Below, one piece after another: positions 17,880 to 60,964 of a stretch of 64,000 nucleotides of DNA. Source of the stretch: Bedellia somnulentella (lineage: Eukaryota; Arthropoda; Insecta; Lepidoptera; Bedelliidae); the NCBI GenBank assembly GCA_963576735.1, contig OY755198.1, forward strand, positions 7,502,001 to 7,566,000, given 5' to 3'. A model generated the notes under the pieces. That model saw only the letters and a program-made list of their open reading frames with translations. It was not told the DNA's origin and searched no databases. The position numbers and the translations under genes were made by a program. Within the stretch, counting starts at the first letter, position 1. The number at the start of each line of letters is the position of its first letter.

Positions 17880-18317
17880 CTTACTACCGTATTTATGAGG
17901 TATTCTATTGTTTCCTCTATTGACTGGTGTCTGCAAGTCTAATTCGTGTGCCACTAACTCAGCTTAATTTGTAGTTTAGTAAGTCAGTAAAGGAAGGGCC
18001 GTCAAGTTTCCTTGGATAAAGATTTCAAACATTTTGCATACAAAAAACATTCTTAAGAGAAATATGTGTTATAGTTGAGAAGCTCTCTTGAATCTAAATA
18101 CATAATTTATTACGAGATGTAAGTTAATACTTGTCAGATAAACTCATGCCACTGAAAAATGCAGCTTTTATCGACGAAATTGGTTGATTTAGGGAAAGAA
18201 TTGATTCAAGAATTGCGCGGTTCAATGTTAAGTGGCCATCAAAGGCGCTCGACGTCATGATAGAAGGCGGGGCATCTGTTGTAACGGCCTTGACATATGC
18301 GATAAAAAGAGGTTATT
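17880..18317. other. no gene seen
   Basis: Unique-looking sequence between two family A copies; no exon or repeat recognised. Confidence 0.35.
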
Positions 18318-18318
18318 C

Positions 18319-18392
18319 ATACATACACATACTCACGGCTATAATCCCTAAAAGGGGTAGCCAGAGCTTCTGAATCAGAAAATTCTTCAGCC
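18319..18392 (-). mobile_element. family A retroposon, left part of split copy
   Basis: Tail and about 60 bases of a minus-strand family A copy, ending in CTTCAGCC, which is the target duplicated by the TIR element inserted at 18393. The rest of this copy resumes at 22894. Confidence 0.85.
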
Positions 18393-18544
18393 GGCTTATT
18401 CCGTTTATTCACCCTTGAAAAGCCACCCTAAGGCGGATATTCGGAAACGCGCCTCCTTCTATCCACCCTGAACGGGGTGGATAGCCGTGATTCATATAAT
18501 ATTTTTCTTCCGATTTTCCACCCTGCCTACGTACAGTCATTTAC
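18393..18544 (+). repeat. left terminal inverted repeat
   Basis: Pairs with 22746-22893. It holds four CACCCT motifs (about 18411, 18425, 18464 and 18519), possible subterminal transposase sites. The pairing includes GCCACCCTAAG, GGAAACGCG, ATCCACCCTGAAC, TTCTTCCGATTTT and GTACAGTCATTTAC, with small indels. Confidence 0.85.
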
Positions 18545-19259
18545 AGAAAAAAGACCTTAAGTTTTAATTTGTCACTTTTTTATTCGGGGTTACTTTCTTG
18601 TTGTGGTTTAATTTGTCACAACGGTCATTTTAAATGGTATTCGACCAAGTTCAACCCTACAGGTGCTTACCTGCAATTTAGATCTTAAGATTATATTACG
18701 CTAATAAGTAAGGAGTAAAATTGTTTGTTCCCTGATGCTGCATTATGCGCATTAAATTAAAGGGCCAATAAGAAGATTTCAAAATAGTATGGCATGTCTT
18801 TATTTTAATTAAGAATAAGACGTCGAATTGAAATTGACATTTACCATCGCGCGGGTTTTTAAATATTTTTAAAAATATTTAATTTACAAGGAGAGAAAAT
18901 TCAACCCGATGGAAGTGAAAATAACCATCTGATTGCGTTATACAAGTATTTTCGAACAGGAAAAGTAAAAGGATTGTATCATATTTTTCAACATTATAAA
19001 TTTAAAAATTTTCATTTAAATTGCAACAAACGAAGTATCTGACAGTTGCCAAGCAACGGGAAGAAGAAAAAACATTACCATAACAACCACAAAGGGAAAT
19101 CAAAGCTGATTGGATGTTGAAGAATGCTGGTGCAGAAAGCAGCATGTAGTGTCAAGTGTTTGTTTTATGAGATAGTGACGCAATGTCATGCGGCATCAGA
19201 CTATGTTTATTTTCATTTTTATAAAATAATTATTGTTTTGATACATTAATTTTATATTT
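18545..19259 (+). other. 5' region upstream of the RT ORF
   Basis: About 700 AT-rich bases inside the TIR element before the ORF start. GTTTTAATTTGTCAC recurs partly as GTTTAATTTGTCACAA near 18611. No second ORF, no recognised promoter, and no obvious LINE 5' border that would tell a nested LINE from transposon-own sequence. Confidence 0.5.
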
Positions 19260-22190
19260 ATGGTCATACCAACTAGCAATAATGTGCCCAGTTCGCAGAT
19301 CACGGCTACGGAAAATTTCAGTGTCGACTCAACAACATTAATATGTCCCCATTGTAGTCAACCACGGTCTTTTAAGGGGAAGAGGGGTCTAAACATACAC
19401 ATTTCGAAATGCCACCGTCTAACAACAAAGAACTCACCCTCTCCGCAACCTTCGTCATCCACGCACCCAATCAATGTATCAGTTTCGTCAGATACATTAC
19501 TTTGGGAAAAAATATCTTTATGGAAATCGTCCATCCCCATAATTAAACGGATTCCTCGGGGAGCTAGAGCTTGTGTTGCCAAATCCTTAGCCCAGACAGT
19601 AAAGGCCGTGGTTGAAAATAATGATTTTGAAAGTTGGCAAAGTTTTTTCGGTTTTTCATATGCAGTTTTAGCCATAAATAGAAATGAAAAGGATCGAAAT
19701 ATATCACTGACACACAAAATAAAGAGCAAATGTGTGTATCCGATTCCAGAGCCTATACTTCAAAATTCAAAATTAATTACAAATAAAAATATTAATTATA
19801 ATATTAAAAAAATTGAGACTAAATTAGGAGATGGGGACATAAAAGGGGCTGCACAAATGCTTTTTTCAAGCGACGCTGTGGCCCCTGATGACCAAGAGAC
19901 TTTGGAGTCTTTGAGAGCAAAACATCCACTCTCATCAGAGATGTCCAGGACGCCTGATGCTCCCGATTATACCGCTCACCCACCAGAAGCCACTCCAGCC
20001 GAGGTTCTCATTGCTATATCTTCTTTCAGAAACGGTTCTGCTGGCGGCCTCGATGGACTGACTCCTCAGCATTTCAAAGATTTATTGAGTGTTTCCGTCG
20101 GGGAAGCCGGCAGAATTCTTTTGGATGAGATAACGCATTTAGTTAATCTCTGCCTGAGTGGTAAAGTATCTCAAACCATCACAGATCTTTTATACGGGGC
20201 AAGTCTGTGTGCTTTGAAAAAGAAAGACGGAGGTATCAGGCCAATCGCTGTGGGAAACACTATCCGCCGGCTGGTATCCAAAATATGCTGTAAGCATGTA
20301 ACGGACATAAAAAACTACTTCCAACCTGTTCAACTAGGTTTCGGAACCAGCGGCGGCTGTGAAGCAGCTGTTCACAGTGTTCGTGCTTTCCTGCAGCATT
20401 GCCGAAGTGACGTTCTGTTGAAAGTGGATGTAAAGAATGCTTTCAACTCAGTTGATAGAGCCGCCTTGCTGGCTGCAGACAAAGAACAAACTCCAGCTTT
20501 ATACAATTACCTTTGGCAATGCTATAGCAAACCTACTAAATTGATCTACCGTGGAAAATTATTAAATTCATGTGTCGGTTGCCAGCAAGGTGACCCTCTG
20601 GGCCCAGCTATATTCAGTTTGGCTATACACCCACACATCAAAAACTTAGCCTCCAAGTTTAATGTGTGGTACCTGGATGACGGCACCATTGGAGGCGAGG
20701 CAAAACAAGTTATAAACGATTTGAAAACAATAATAGAAGAATTCAAAAAAATTGGTCTAGATTTGAATTATGAAAAGTGTGAACTGTATTTTGGCCCCGA
20801 TTTAAACAAAGAAACTGTTACAGAAATGCAATCAAAATTCAATTCATTAGCCCCAGGTATCAAAATTTTAAATTCGGCTTCGCTTCGCCTCCTAGGTGCC
20901 CCAGTTCTGGATGATTCTATTCCAAAATTTATAGCAGAAAAAAATTCTAAATTTCAGGAATCATCTTCTTTATTGGCACAACTTAACCCTCATGTAGCAT
21001 ATACAATAATAAAGTATTGTTTGTTTGTTCCAAAATTTACTTATGTACTGAGATGTTCTGGTTTATGGAGGCAAATCTCAGTCCTTTCGGACATAGACAA
21101 CGTGATTAAAAACACTTTGATCAAAATTCTCAACATTTCCTTAAATGAACGCTGCTGGACACAAGCCACGCTCCCAATACGGTACGGTGGTATTGGGATC
21201 CGCAGCGTTTCAAGTATAGCCTTACCAGCTTTCTTGTCATCTGGTTTTGCCAATTACAATCTTTTCTTAAGCATCATTAGTAAAGCTTTAAGTTCGGCAG
21301 AGATCATCGATCTCACAGATGCTAAGAAAGTTTGGATGGATATAGTTGGTCCTACTGTCAATGTTCCCATCAGTCTGGCATCTCAGAGGCAATGGGACGA
21401 GCCCCTCTGCTGTCAAGTTCAAGCAAATCTTCTTAGTTCAGCTCTTGACTTGGCGGAGCGGGCGCGTCTCTTGGCTTGCTGTGAGCCAGATTCTGGGCAT
21501 TGGTTGAGAGCATTACCATCGAGCAACCTCGGCACATTGCTAGACAGAGGCTCCTTTTCTTTAGCTATGGGTCTGCGATTGGGCACCAAAATAAATGAGA
21601 GACATCGCTGCCGCTGTGGAGTATTTGTCGATCAGTTGGGGCACCATGGATTATCATGTCGTCGTAGTGCTGGTCGCATACCTCGCCATGCTGCAATCAA
21701 TGATATTATCAGACGGGCCCTTACCACTGTCAACATACCAGCAATCCTGGAGCCATCAGGTTTGCTGCGGGACGATGGTAAGAGACCAGACGGAATGTCA
21801 TTGATTCCATGGAAGAATGGGAGGACGCTGGTGTGGGACGCTACCTGCGTCGACACGCTAGCGCCGTCTCATTTGTCGGGGTCTGCATCTAAAGCTGGCA
21901 CTGCGGCAGCTGAAGCTGAGGGTCTGAAGAGGCGCAAATATAGCAATTTAGCTGAGGAGCATTACTTCTCAGCTTTTGCTGTAGAGACTCTCGGTCCGTG
22001 GGGCCCAGATGCGCGTCGTTTTTTCAAAGAAATTTCGACGCGCCTGATCGAGGAATGCGGAGATCCGAGGGCTGGCGCATTCTTCGCTCAAAGAATCAGC
22101 TTAGCGATTCAAAGGGGTAATGCAGCCAGCCTTCTCGGAACCCTGCCACCAGGCGGCAGCGATTTCGAGAGTATTTTTTATATAATTTAA
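19260..22190 (+). CDS. reverse transcriptase with zinc finger and RLE-like endonuclease
   Basis: Intact 976-residue frame, probable RNA-templated DNA synthesis. An N-terminal C2H2-like finger lies at 29-52 (CPHC...HISKCH). RT motifs follow: KKKDGGIRPIAVG (320-332), QLGFGTSGGCEAA (358-370), motif A LLKVDVKNAFNSVD (386-399, D390), motif B CQQGDPLGPAIFS (441-453), motif C YLDDG (471-475), motif D near 500-510 and a LRLLGAP motif E. The C-terminus has a Cys-His cluster (C784, C786, H795/H796, C800) and a PD-(D/E)xK-like KRPDGM...LVWDAT (P843, D844, D860), the plan of restriction-like-endonuclease LINEs such as R2, R4 and NeSL. ATG 19260 precedes the finger. It lies within a TIR element. Exact clade not assigned. 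Confidence 0.85.
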   Translation: MVIPTSNNVPSSQITATENFSVDSTTLICPHCSQPRSFKGKRGLNIHISKCHRLTTKNSPSPQPSSSTHPINVSVSSDTLLWEKISLWKSSIPIIKRIPRGARACVAKSLAQTVKAVVENNDFESWQSFFGFSYAVLAINRNEKDRNISLTHKIKSKCVYPIPEPILQNSKLITNKNINYNIKKIETKLGDGDIKGAAQMLFSSDAVAPDDQETLESLRAKHPLSSEMSRTPDAPDYTAHPPEATPAEVLIAISSFRNGSAGGLDGLTPQHFKDLLSVSVGEAGRILLDEITHLVNLCLSGKVSQTITDLLYGASLCALKKKDGGIRPIAVGNTIRRLVSKICCKHVTDIKNYFQPVQLGFGTSGGCEAAVHSVRAFLQHCRSDVLLKVDVKNAFNSVDRAALLAADKEQTPALYNYLWQCYSKPTKLIYRGKLLNSCVGCQQGDPLGPAIFSLAIHPHIKNLASKFNVWYLDDGTIGGEAKQVINDLKTIIEEFKKIGLDLNYEKCELYFGPDLNKETVTEMQSKFNSLAPGIKILNSASLRLLGAPVLDDSIPKFIAEKNSKFQESSSLLAQLNPHVAYTIIKYCLFVPKFTYVLRCSGLWRQISVLSDIDNVIKNTLIKILNISLNERCWTQATLPIRYGGIGIRSVSSIALPAFLSSGFANYNLFLSIISKALSSAEIIDLTDAKKVWMDIVGPTVNVPISLASQRQWDEPLCCQVQANLLSSALDLAERARLLACCEPDSGHWLRALPSSNLGTLLDRGSFSLAMGLRLGTKINERHRCRCGVFVDQLGHHGLSCRRSAGRIPRHAAINDIIRRALTTVNIPAILEPSGLLRDDGKRPDGMSLIPWKNGRTLVWDATCVDTLAPSHLSGSASKAGTAAAEAEGLKRRKYSNLAEEHYFSAFAVETLGPWGPDARRFFKEISTRLIEECGDPRAGAFFAQRISLAIQRGNAASLLGTLPPGGSDFESIFYII

Positions 22191-22440
22191 TGTAGGTTAG
22201 GTTTTTCATATATTATAATTTTATTTTATTTTTTACCTGTATATATAGTTAAATGTGTAAATATATGTTAATTTATTGAATATGAATAAAAACCTAATAT
22301 TACGCTATTCATTTAACAATAAATATGAAATTAAAACTTCCCATCAATCAAACTGTATGTAGGATAGTAGGTATTTTTATCTAAAGTATTTTAATGTTCA
22401 TGAAGTTTCTTGCGCCTGTTTTGTGTTGTGTATGTTTCTA
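22191..22440 (+). other. 3' region of the RT gene
   Basis: Starts TGTAGGTTAGGTTTTTCATA after the stop. Similarity to the truncated copy at 33682-34003 continues to AAATGTGTAAATATAT (about 22267) and then ends. The remaining bases to 22440 have no recognised repeat. Confidence 0.6.
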
Positions 22441-22480
22441 TAAATGACTGTACTTGGGGTAAAAAATCGGAAGAAACTTA

Positions 22481-22729
22481 CATACATACATATATTCACG
22501 GCTATAAATCCCTAGAAGGGGTAGCTTAGCTCTGCTAACGAATTAGAAATTCCTCAGCCACTTTTGGAGGTTACGTGGGGAAAAGATGGTAAAATAAAGG
22601 TTGTTGGTGATGGGTCTCCAACCGCATCGCCCAAAAATCCCTTAAAAAGCCCCAATACCGTTAGTCGCCTCTTACGTACACCCATCGGAAGAAATGGGAT
22701 AGTGCTATTCTAAGCCGACACTACACAGC
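22481..22729 (-). mobile_element. family A retroposon with 40-bp target duplication
   Basis: Complete minus-strand s1 copy, with a small GCTTAGCTCTGCTAACG rearrangement. It is flanked by a 40-bp direct repeat (22441-22480 and 22746-22785) with one mismatch, beginning TAAATGACTGTACTTGG. It inserted in the inner part of the right TIR. Confidence 0.9.
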
Positions 22730-22745
22730 TTGGACTAAATACTAG

Positions 22746-22893
22746 TAAATGACTGTACTTGGAGTAAAAAATCGGAAGAAACTTATTATTATTAAATACG
22801 ATTATCCGCCTTGTTCAGGGTGGATTAAAGGACACGCGTTTCCCAGTATCTGACTTAGGGTGGCTGTTTTAGGGAGTATAAACGGAATAAGCC
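22746..22893 (-). repeat. right terminal inverted repeat
   Basis: Inverted partner of 18393-18544 ending GGAATAAGCC. The inner 40 bp was duplicated when the family A copy inserted. Confidence 0.85.
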
Positions 22894-23073
22894 CTTCAGC
22901 CAGTTATGGAAGTTGCGTGGGGAAAATATTGTAAAACATTTTTTTATGGTGATGGGTCTCCAACAGCATCGCCTAAAAATCACTTTAAAAGCCCCGATAG
23001 ACCTTTAGTCGCCTGTTTTGATCACCTATGAGAATAAATGTGTTAGTGCTATTCTAAGCCGACACTACGCAGC
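22894..23073 (-). mobile_element. family A retroposon, right part of split copy
   Basis: Resumes with CTTCAGCCAGTTATGG and ends CCGACACTACGCAGC; continues the copy begun at 18319. Confidence 0.85.
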
Positions 23074-33681: not shown

Positions 33682-34003
33682 TAGCTGAAGAGCATTACTT
33701 CTCAGCTTTTGCTGTAGAGACTCTCGGTCCGTGGGGCCCAGATGCGCGTCGTTTTTTCAAAGAAATTTCGACGTGCCTGATCGAGAAATGCGGAGATCCA
33801 AGGGCTGGCGAATTCTTCGCTCAAAGAATTAGCTTAGCGATTCAAAGGGGTAATGCAGCCAGCCTTCTCGGAACCCTGCCACCAGGCGGCAGCGATTTCG
33901 AGAGCATTTTTAATATAATTTAATGTAGGTTAGGTTTTTCATATATTATAATAATACATTAGTTTTTTTAAACTGTGTATATAGTTAAATGTGTAAATAT
34001 ATT
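33682..34003 (+). pseudogene. 5'-truncated copy of the RT gene
   Basis: Begins abruptly in TAGCTGAAGAGCATTACTTC, equivalent to about 21950 of the intact gene, and encodes its last ~78 residues (AEEHYFSAFAVETLGPWGPD ...) to the same stop. A few substitutions are seen (R to C, E to K, A to E), and part of the 3' UTR follows to AAATGTGTAAATATAT. The abrupt 5' end and shared 3' end are what target-primed reverse transcription leaves, so the RT gene or its relatives have moved by copying RNA. Confidence 0.85.
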
Positions 34004-34222
34004 TTTGTTGTAAAAAAAGTGAAAGATTATCCTAAAGTAACAAAATAACATGAGAAATATGAATGAAACAGCTCCAATTAATTTAATTATGAAGTAGCAA
34101 GATTAATACCTGATCGTAACCATTAAATTACATACATGATGTAAAACTTGCTTACATACCATGATAAGGATAAATCATAGATATATAACGCTTAACGTAT
34201 ACGAATACGAGTAATAGATGGG
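34004..34222. other. no gene seen
   Basis: AT-rich spacer; no TIR like that at 18393 or 22893 was found near the truncated RT copy. Confidence 0.35.
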
Positions 34223-51956: not shown

Positions 51957-51987
51957 AAAACGGTTGTTTCTTCTGTATTATAAGTTA

Positions 51988-52240
51988 GCTGTGTAGTGTC
52001 GGCTTAGAATAGCACTACCCCAGTTCTTCCGGTGGGTGTACGTAAGAGGCGACTAACGGTTTTGGGGCTTTTGAGGGATTTTTGGGCGATGCGGTTGGAG
52101 ACCCATCACCAACAACCTTTATTTCACCATCTTTTCCCCACACAACTTCCAAAAGTGGCTGAGGAATTTCTGATTCCTTAGCTCTGGCTACCCCTTCTAG
52201 GGATTTATAGCCGTGAGTATATGTATGTATGTATGTATAA
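51988..52240 (+). mobile_element. family A retroposon, s1
   Basis: Complete copy; TATAAGTT flanks both ends. Confidence 0.88.
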
Positions 52241-59588: not shown

Positions 59589-59653
59589 GTGCTCAAAGTA
59601 TTTTAAGTTAGACTATTTCGAATTTCAAATCAACCATAAATATTAAAGCGAAA

Positions 59654-60709
59654 ATGATTGCTCTGAAAAAGTTATATGGTGATGAGTTACTGCGGTTGGC
59701 ATTAGTGTTGAGTCTGTTGAAGAATCCGAGCGACCACTTGGAAGCTGAGACGCATCAGCTGATGGCAGGCCTTCATATATCCAACGGAACAGACTGGGCT
59801 TATGACAACGAGCCCAGAACCCTCATACGACCAAGATATGTCCACCCGAAATCCTTGGATAACATTCTTATCAACGAAAGGGAGCTGTTTGAAGAATTGA
59901 ATTCTTTAGGAAGATATTCCAATACGTATTTAAACAATGAACGATCGTGGATATCCAACTCACCGGTATTACATACATATGTAGTTAATAATGTGACGAC
60001 CGAACCAGTAGCGAGTCCGCCGACGGAACAACCGGTGGATTCGGAAGTCGTCAACGATTCGGTTTCGGGTGATGATAATGTCGCACAAGAGGTCAAAGTA
60101 GAAGATACAGAAGACACAATAGTAGAAGCTGTAGTCACTCTTTCTCCTTCGTTCTTCGAAAATAGAACAGAGACGGATATCTTTGCTGAAATCGCTTCGA
60201 GAACGTTCGATGTTAACGAGTTTCTGGTGAATCCTGCAGACATGATTAAGAAAGAGAATGATGTTACGGTCAAGGAAGAGCCGATGGATTTGTATGACGA
60301 TAATGCGGTTGATAACTTTGTGCCGTATATCAATGAGAAGTCCGACAATTTCCTAGATGAATCTCCATCGGTTTTTGACCAAAATATGGCGGATTTGAAA
60401 GAATACGCTGATTTTCTTGATGATGTCACAGATTTGAAGACCAATTTTGAATATCTGGACAACAAACAAGAGGATCTAGAACAATATCTTCTAGAAAATA
60501 CTCCGTTAGATTCTGAAGTCTACAATTTAGCTCCGCTGTTCGATGAGGAATTGGTTTTGGATGTGAAGAGGGAAAGAGCTAGCACGAGTTTTACTTCAGC
60601 AAGTTCTAGTGGTGTGAGCGAGATGGAGAATATGTCTGTTGGTTCTGAGGTTGATATCAAGATGGAGCCAGACGAGGGTCATCATTCTGGTGATGAGCTT
60701 ACTCAGGAG
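59654..60709 (+). CDS. cncC: cap'n'collar long isoform (CncC), first coding exon
   Basis: Encodes the first 352 residues of the bZIP regulator of oxidative and xenobiotic stress genes (NRF1/NRF2 relative). The N-terminus matches NRF1/CncC: MIALKKLYGDELLRLALVLS with a hydrophobic segment at ~11-23 (an ER anchor in NRF1), then YVHPKSLDNILINERELFEE (62-81) and LNSLGRY. The middle is acidic, with SUMO-type motifs around K148 (VKVE), K207 (VKEEP) and K336 (IKMEP). The Neh2-like Keap1-binding region, CNC domain and bZIP are not here. The exon ends phase 0 at CTCAGGAG|GTAAGTG; the window frame runs six codons into the intron. The start AAAATGATTG is the first in-frame ATG. Confidence 0.88.
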
Positions 60710-60964
60710 GTAAGTGCTTTTATATGTTAAAGTAGAAACGACCTTATTGCGATGCACTTAAAGTCCCGTTTGGTTGAACTCATGATGTGTTATTTTAATG
60801 TCTCATATTTTTGCGAATTTTGAAGGGTCAGCGTCAATATTGTGGTTCTTGTTTTTTTTATTAATGTGTTATTATATCTTATGTTTCATCGACGTCACTC
60901 AGTTGATAAGTGTAAAAGTGTATCTCTCATAGCCAATAATAATGTGCGTATAATGTCCAAGTCA
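60710..60964 (+). other. start of cncC intron
   Basis: Follows a strong donor, GTAAGTG. No second exon is found before the window ends; the intron is filled with the retroposons listed below. Confidence 0.6.

Follow-up and report, generated by a model that had tools for sequence, protein, structure and literature searches.

An RT gene between terminal inverted repeats

A stretch of 64,000 nucleotides from the lepidopteran Bedellia somnulentella (assembly GCA_963576735.1, contig OY755198.1, positions 7,502,001 to 7,566,000 of the forward strand), hereafter the window, contains a long open reading frame (ORF) for a reverse transcriptase (RT) that is enclosed by terminal inverted repeats (TIRs). 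A sequence-only reading of the locus had seen in it either a DNA transposon that had taken on an RT, or a long interspersed nuclear element (LINE) that uses such transposons as a target or carrier. The apparent contradiction of an RT inside TIRs most probably resolves into two elements, a LINE and a miniature inverted-repeat transposable element (MITE); sequenced relatives of the latter show the empty site.

The outer structure described by that reading held in full. The borders are exact, the 8-bp sequence CTTCAGCC is duplicated at both of them (Table 1), and GGCTTATTCCGTTTAT is read inward from both ends, with inverted arms that are alignable over ~150 bp (78%, BLAST). On the left, positions 18315-18392 and, on the right, the sequence from 22904 onward align with neighbouring parts of a copy of a repeat, family A, at 51985-52236, thus a family A copy has been cleanly split at the CTTCAGCC duplication. 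Three features had been missed: another family A copy interrupting the right arm, homology to the MITE family that extends inward beyond 150 bp (to 18703 on the left and from 22297 on the right), and an 11-bp direct repeat around the RT block.

The ORF is by far the longest in the window, with 982 codons from stop to stop and 976 when counted from the first ATG at 19260; the next longest listed has 372. An intact frame with a zinc finger, the YLDD motif of RT and a PD...D endonuclease resembling the restriction-like endonuclease (RLE) had been claimed, and these parts were recovered by Pfam, alignment, profile and fold. The only Pfam domain reported is the RT domain PF00078 (RVT_1, E 2.6e-26). 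Among solved structures, the best matches by sequence are R2 retrotransposon proteins, at 5.7e-8 with the single sequence and at E 4.2e-21 with a 63-sequence profile (positions 229-910 of 957). The 63 sequences show no variation at the YLDD aspartates, at C784/C786/H796/C800 or at D844...D860, and almost none at the N-terminal zinc-finger residues C29/C32/H47/H52 and at P843. The AlphaFold2 model has a mean pLDDT of 89.1 and its top Foldseek matches are R2 structures. In VIA-align, three LINE-1 ORF2p rows stand above R2 by Z, with 507-664 aligned residues versus 697-754 for R2. By profile and predicted fold, the ORF product is R2-like through its C-terminus, a candidate RT/endonuclease whose C-terminal part is a putative restriction-like endonuclease that would be active by its resemblance to such enzymes. 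A single ORF combining zinc finger, RT and restriction-like endonuclease is the layout of an RLE-type LINE.

Table 1. Positions of the two elements, their duplications and related features in the window
Feature	Position	Strand	Basis or remark
Left 8-bp target duplication of outer TIR element, CTTCAGCC	18385..18392		Exact border in sequence
Outer non-coding TIR element (MITE), left part	18393..18703	+	85% to L013 bases 1-319; 7 MITE-only matches stop at 18700-18703
11-bp target duplication of LINE insertion, left copy, ATATTACGCTA	18693..18703	+	Empty-site overlap
122-bp extra sequence between left duplication and LINE 5' end	18704..18825	+	Unlike other LINE copies and MITE
RLE-type non-LTR retrotransposon (LINE), full length	18826..22292	+	Common 5' start, common 3' end ...GAATATGAATAAA; ends accurate to within a few bases
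976-codon ORF: N-terminal zinc finger, RT (YLDD), C-terminal zinc-binding motif, putative PD...D restriction-like endonuclease	19260..22190	+	Pfam, alignment, profile, fold
11-bp target duplication of LINE insertion, right copy, ATATTACGCTA	22297..22307	+	Empty-site overlap
Outer TIR element, right part up to family A insertion	22297..22480	+	Matches L013 309-511 and L012 468-654
Family A repeat inserted in right arm	22481..22745		Bracketed by 40-bp direct duplication 22441-22480 / 22746-22785
Outer TIR element, right end	22746..22893	+	Arm alignment and match to relatives
Right 8-bp target duplication of outer TIR element, CTTCAGCC	22894..22901		Exact border in sequence
Second, 5'-truncated LINE copy outside TIR element	33682..34005	+	Possible 11-bp duplication, 10/11 identical

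An empty site in related MITEs and the dispersal of the LINE

The TIR was used to query the 549-Mb genome assembly, which gave 1580 first-look candidates, and the best 40 were scored. From these, 27 other TIR loci (L002-L028) were fetched. The ends could be paired in 22 of them, with lengths of 380, 426-437, 552-567, 615-616 and 762 bp, and were not found as pairs in the remaining five (L002, which contains N, L008, L016, L019 and L025). Perfect 8-bp duplications bracket 15 of the 22 paired copies, the other seven being mismatched or unlike. The RT ORF, whose recurrence within other copies of the TIR element the sequence-only reading had proposed to check, was absent from all 27 loci when the RT block was compared by BLAST. 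With TIRs, a target duplication of fixed length, a high copy number and a short, non-coding sequence, the outer element is a non-autonomous short TIR family, a MITE.

Two of these relatives are contiguous across the RT junction. L013 is an intact element of 616 bp with a perfect ATTTTACT duplication; its bases 1-319 match window positions 18393-18703 and its bases 309-511 match 22297-22480, so that the two matches overlap by 11 bp. The overlap is ATATTACGCTA, of which the window has two copies and L013 a single, diverged one. L012 (762 bp, with a perfect ATCACATC duplication) likewise continues across the junction. L013 is an empty site of the LINE insertion, in a relative element. Consistently, seven MITE-only matches in a search with the LINE 5' region (described below) end at query positions 156-159, i.e., 18700-18703 of the window. 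The short target duplication sought within 18545-22440 was located. The 11-bp repeat by itself is weak, since 34 of 2000 Markov-resampled versions of the two 100-bp flanks also had a word of at least 11 in common; it is convincing because it is placed exactly at the empty-site junction. An alternative placement, with CCCTAYAGGT and AACAAT of the 563-bp MITE class as the immediate neighbours of the RT, was dropped because the intervening sequence is present in L012 and L013; the 563-bp class is without the piece next to the insertion point that these two elements retain.

Outside the MITE, the RT sequence has borders of its own. A search with window positions 22100-22440 gave 1525 candidates, and the best 40 were scored, comprising the window itself and 39 other copies. 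All 39 are 98-100% identical and stop at window positions 22288-22306, and none runs past 22306 into the MITE. Two additional short reverse matches adjoin listed copies. In 20 fetched 3' junctions, ...GAATATGAATAAA is common to all and is followed, as judged by eye, by divergent flanks, i.e., a unique 3' environment for each copy. For the 5' end, positions 18545-19260 served as query, with 469 candidates and the best 40 scored. The other scored LINE matches start at 18825-18836 in 27 of 32 cases, four starting later and one 24 bp earlier, and none of the 32 extends into the MITE.

In four of the 20 junctions (L049, L050, L053 and L060), GAATATGAATAAA is followed by an additional GAGCTATAT tail, which may mark a subfamily or be a 3' extension. 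These are the copies whose matches reach 22302-22306, via a similar tail and not via the MITE.

When the genome was searched with the protein (4083 candidates, 47 scored), at least 13 other full-length frames uninterrupted by stops were found at 99-100% identity, as well as related LINE subfamilies at 71-78%. Among the 47, 14 further matches at 96-99% are without 87 or more N-terminal residues. For at least two of these (C3:1655692 and C8:3604122) the LINE 5' end lies nearby, hence they are not simple truncations. At an earlier estimate of the 5' boundary, 20 loci were examined and one had a 59-bp LINE match, which gave nothing firm on truncation.

Target duplications were assessed on the 5' and 3' flanks fetched for 20 LINE copies. 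Both ends were located in 14, which together with the two window copies made 16. The best match between the 5' and 3' flanks scored at least 11 in 8 of the 16, compared with 6 of 240 mismatched control pairs. Clear duplications are AGTTATGAACACT, GATTGTACAGA, AATGAAAACGT and AGCAAGATTAT, in addition to the window's ATATTACGCTA. The inner element has the features of a LINE: its copies are dispersed, share one 3' end, are in part 5'-truncated and have target duplications, and it has neither TIRs nor long terminal repeats of its own.

The 5' junction in the window holds an additional piece. The RT block had been estimated from the 11-bp repeat as 18704-22296, and this was replaced because other copies start near 18825, which sets 18704-18825 apart as a separate 5' piece of 122 bp, inside the 11-bp repeats. 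It has one other match in the genome, 89% over 102 bp at C5:15607302-15607403, and neither LINE nor MITE was found in the 1001 bp fetched around that match (L126, C5:15606700-15607700). No known RNA family reached its gathering score at the LINE 5' end. Most likely, the piece is a co-transcribed 5' extension or the product of a template switch. For BLAG of the German cockroach, section 3.3 of PMC7650587 explains foreign 5' sequence by transcription from host promoters; a co-transcript of this kind, or a template switch, would account for the 122 bp.

Probable nested insertion and its alternatives

The locus carries two sets of duplications, its relatives carry an empty site, and the LINE disperses independently, with constant ends and duplications of its own. 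We read the composite, with a probability of about 0.96, as a nested insertion of two elements, an R2-like LINE without site specificity in a MITE. A MITE of a high-copy family would have inserted in a family A repeat, producing the 8-bp duplication CTTCAGCC. A full-length RLE-type LINE would then have inserted into the middle of the MITE, presumably by target-primed reverse transcription, producing the 11-bp duplication ATATTACGCTA and bringing in a foreign 5' stretch of 122 bp. Among the best-scoring candidates, identity is 100% at the scored parts for the nearest other LINE copies versus 92% for the nearest other TIR copy, thus the LINE probably inserted after the MITE. The sequence-only reading had named RT copies with constant ends and no TIRs, together with an empty TIR element at a LINE-type duplication, as the mark of a simple nested insertion, and both were found. 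Neither a transposon with an acquired RT nor a LINE regularly targeting the MITE is upheld, and what remains of its proposals is a single LINE that landed in a MITE.

Several observations weigh against nested insertion. Scoring covered only the best 40 of the 1525 candidates and the best 40 of the 469, a selection biased towards near-identical copies. Between the usual 5' start and the LINE duplication upstream of it there are 122 bp, an extension seen in none of the 32 other scored 5' matches, and four to six bases separate the usual 3' end of the LINE from the right duplication. Flank matches with a score of at least 8 occur in 15 of the 16 LINE copies but also in 73 of the 240 control pairs. 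Two of the eight high-scoring duplications are doubtful, one being A-rich (C2:3669685) and one lying within the LINE's own end (C3:1655021), which reduces the count to 6 of 16; at C6:16013827 (score 10) the match likewise lies within the LINE's own end. Six of the 20 fetched copies were dropped from this test, five without a LINE end in the fetched 3' stretch and one (C5:7214111) without a located 5' start. Furthermore, the empty sites are those of relatives and not of the same locus without the LINE.

If the RT were the transposon's own gene, the short MITEs would be its internal-deletion derivatives. Such a history could explain why the outer duplication, the TIRs and the ORF are all intact and why the MITEs and the window element have both ends in common, but it is scarcely credible given that L013 runs contiguously across the junction with a single diverged copy of the word that the window has twice. 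Nor does it fit the scored RT copies elsewhere, which have constant ends of their own without TIRs and never continue into the TIR element (0/39 and 0/32), or the 27 TIR loci devoid of RT. A LINE that specifically targets this MITE family would have precedents: some RLE-type LINEs target repeats, and in Xenopus Tx1L, a LINE with a different type of endonuclease, lies within the TIR transposon Tx1D as its regular target. The window likewise has a LINE inside a TIR transposon, here as a single insertion among unlike sites. Four of the five RLE clades are described in PMC4640811 as mostly target-specific, whereas the fifth, HERO, is credited there with many non-specific elements. The insertion does sit within a repeat; however, no match to the MITE was obtained in any of 77 small loci surrounding other RT copies (57 of them true junction pieces, the other 20 lying at wrongly predicted 5' positions), none of the 39 other scored 3' ends lies in it, and the 20 fetched 3' flanks are unlike by eye. 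Specific targeting is thus very improbable.

The composite might also be mobile as a whole at present, with the MITE's transposase carrying the LINE as cargo; in such a TIR transposon, an RT gene would be disseminated both by cut and paste and by retrotransposition. The composite has retained its outer ends and 8-bp duplications in full, and the ends may still be recognised. We regard this as highly unlikely in view of its length (4.5 kb, where the 22 paired copies measure 380-762 bp), its interrupted right arm and the lack of a second composite among the scored candidates.

Related elements and other features of the window

The nested-insertion reading brings with it an R2-like LINE that is not site-specific and has many near-identical copies, a case relevant to the way RLE LINEs persist when they have no fixed target. 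R2, represented by the structures from Bombyx mori, Taeniopygia guttata and Platysternon megacephalum, is like the window LINE in its N-terminal zinc finger, in an RT followed by a C-terminal endonuclease, in the profile match and in the top Foldseek matches. R2 occupies one fixed site in the 28S rDNA, whereas the window LINE is dispersed at unlike sites, with different flanks by eye at the 20 fetched 3' junctions. BLAG, as described in PMC7650587, is also R2-like and non-site-specific, and agrees with the window LINE in its length (3.2-3.7 kb), one ORF, unique 3' environments, 5'-truncated copies and foreign 5' sequence. It has 3-6 copies per family, compared with 1525 first-look candidates here; the likeness is one of described features.

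Protein relatives with E up to 0.001 numbered 866, and the best 120 were listed. Their named sources are nearly all Lepidoptera (Epargyreus, Mythimna, Plutella, Cydia and others). Compared by protein alone, these unnamed RT proteins, mostly filed as uncharacterized or hypothetical, are 40-64% identical to the window protein, and the 22 that were aligned share its zinc finger, its YLDD and its C-terminal motifs.

In the window, family A is a repeat of ~255 bp with dozens of full or partial matches in both orientations. The 40-bp direct duplication around the copy in the right arm is 98% identical and unusually long for a target duplication. At 59612-60730, a 372-codon open frame, which had no Pfam match at E 0.01, is overlapped by a 239-codon frame on the opposite strand. 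One close relative of the RT (P0093) is recorded for the plant Castilleja foliolosa, where it lies on a contig of 26 kb, and is perhaps insect contamination.

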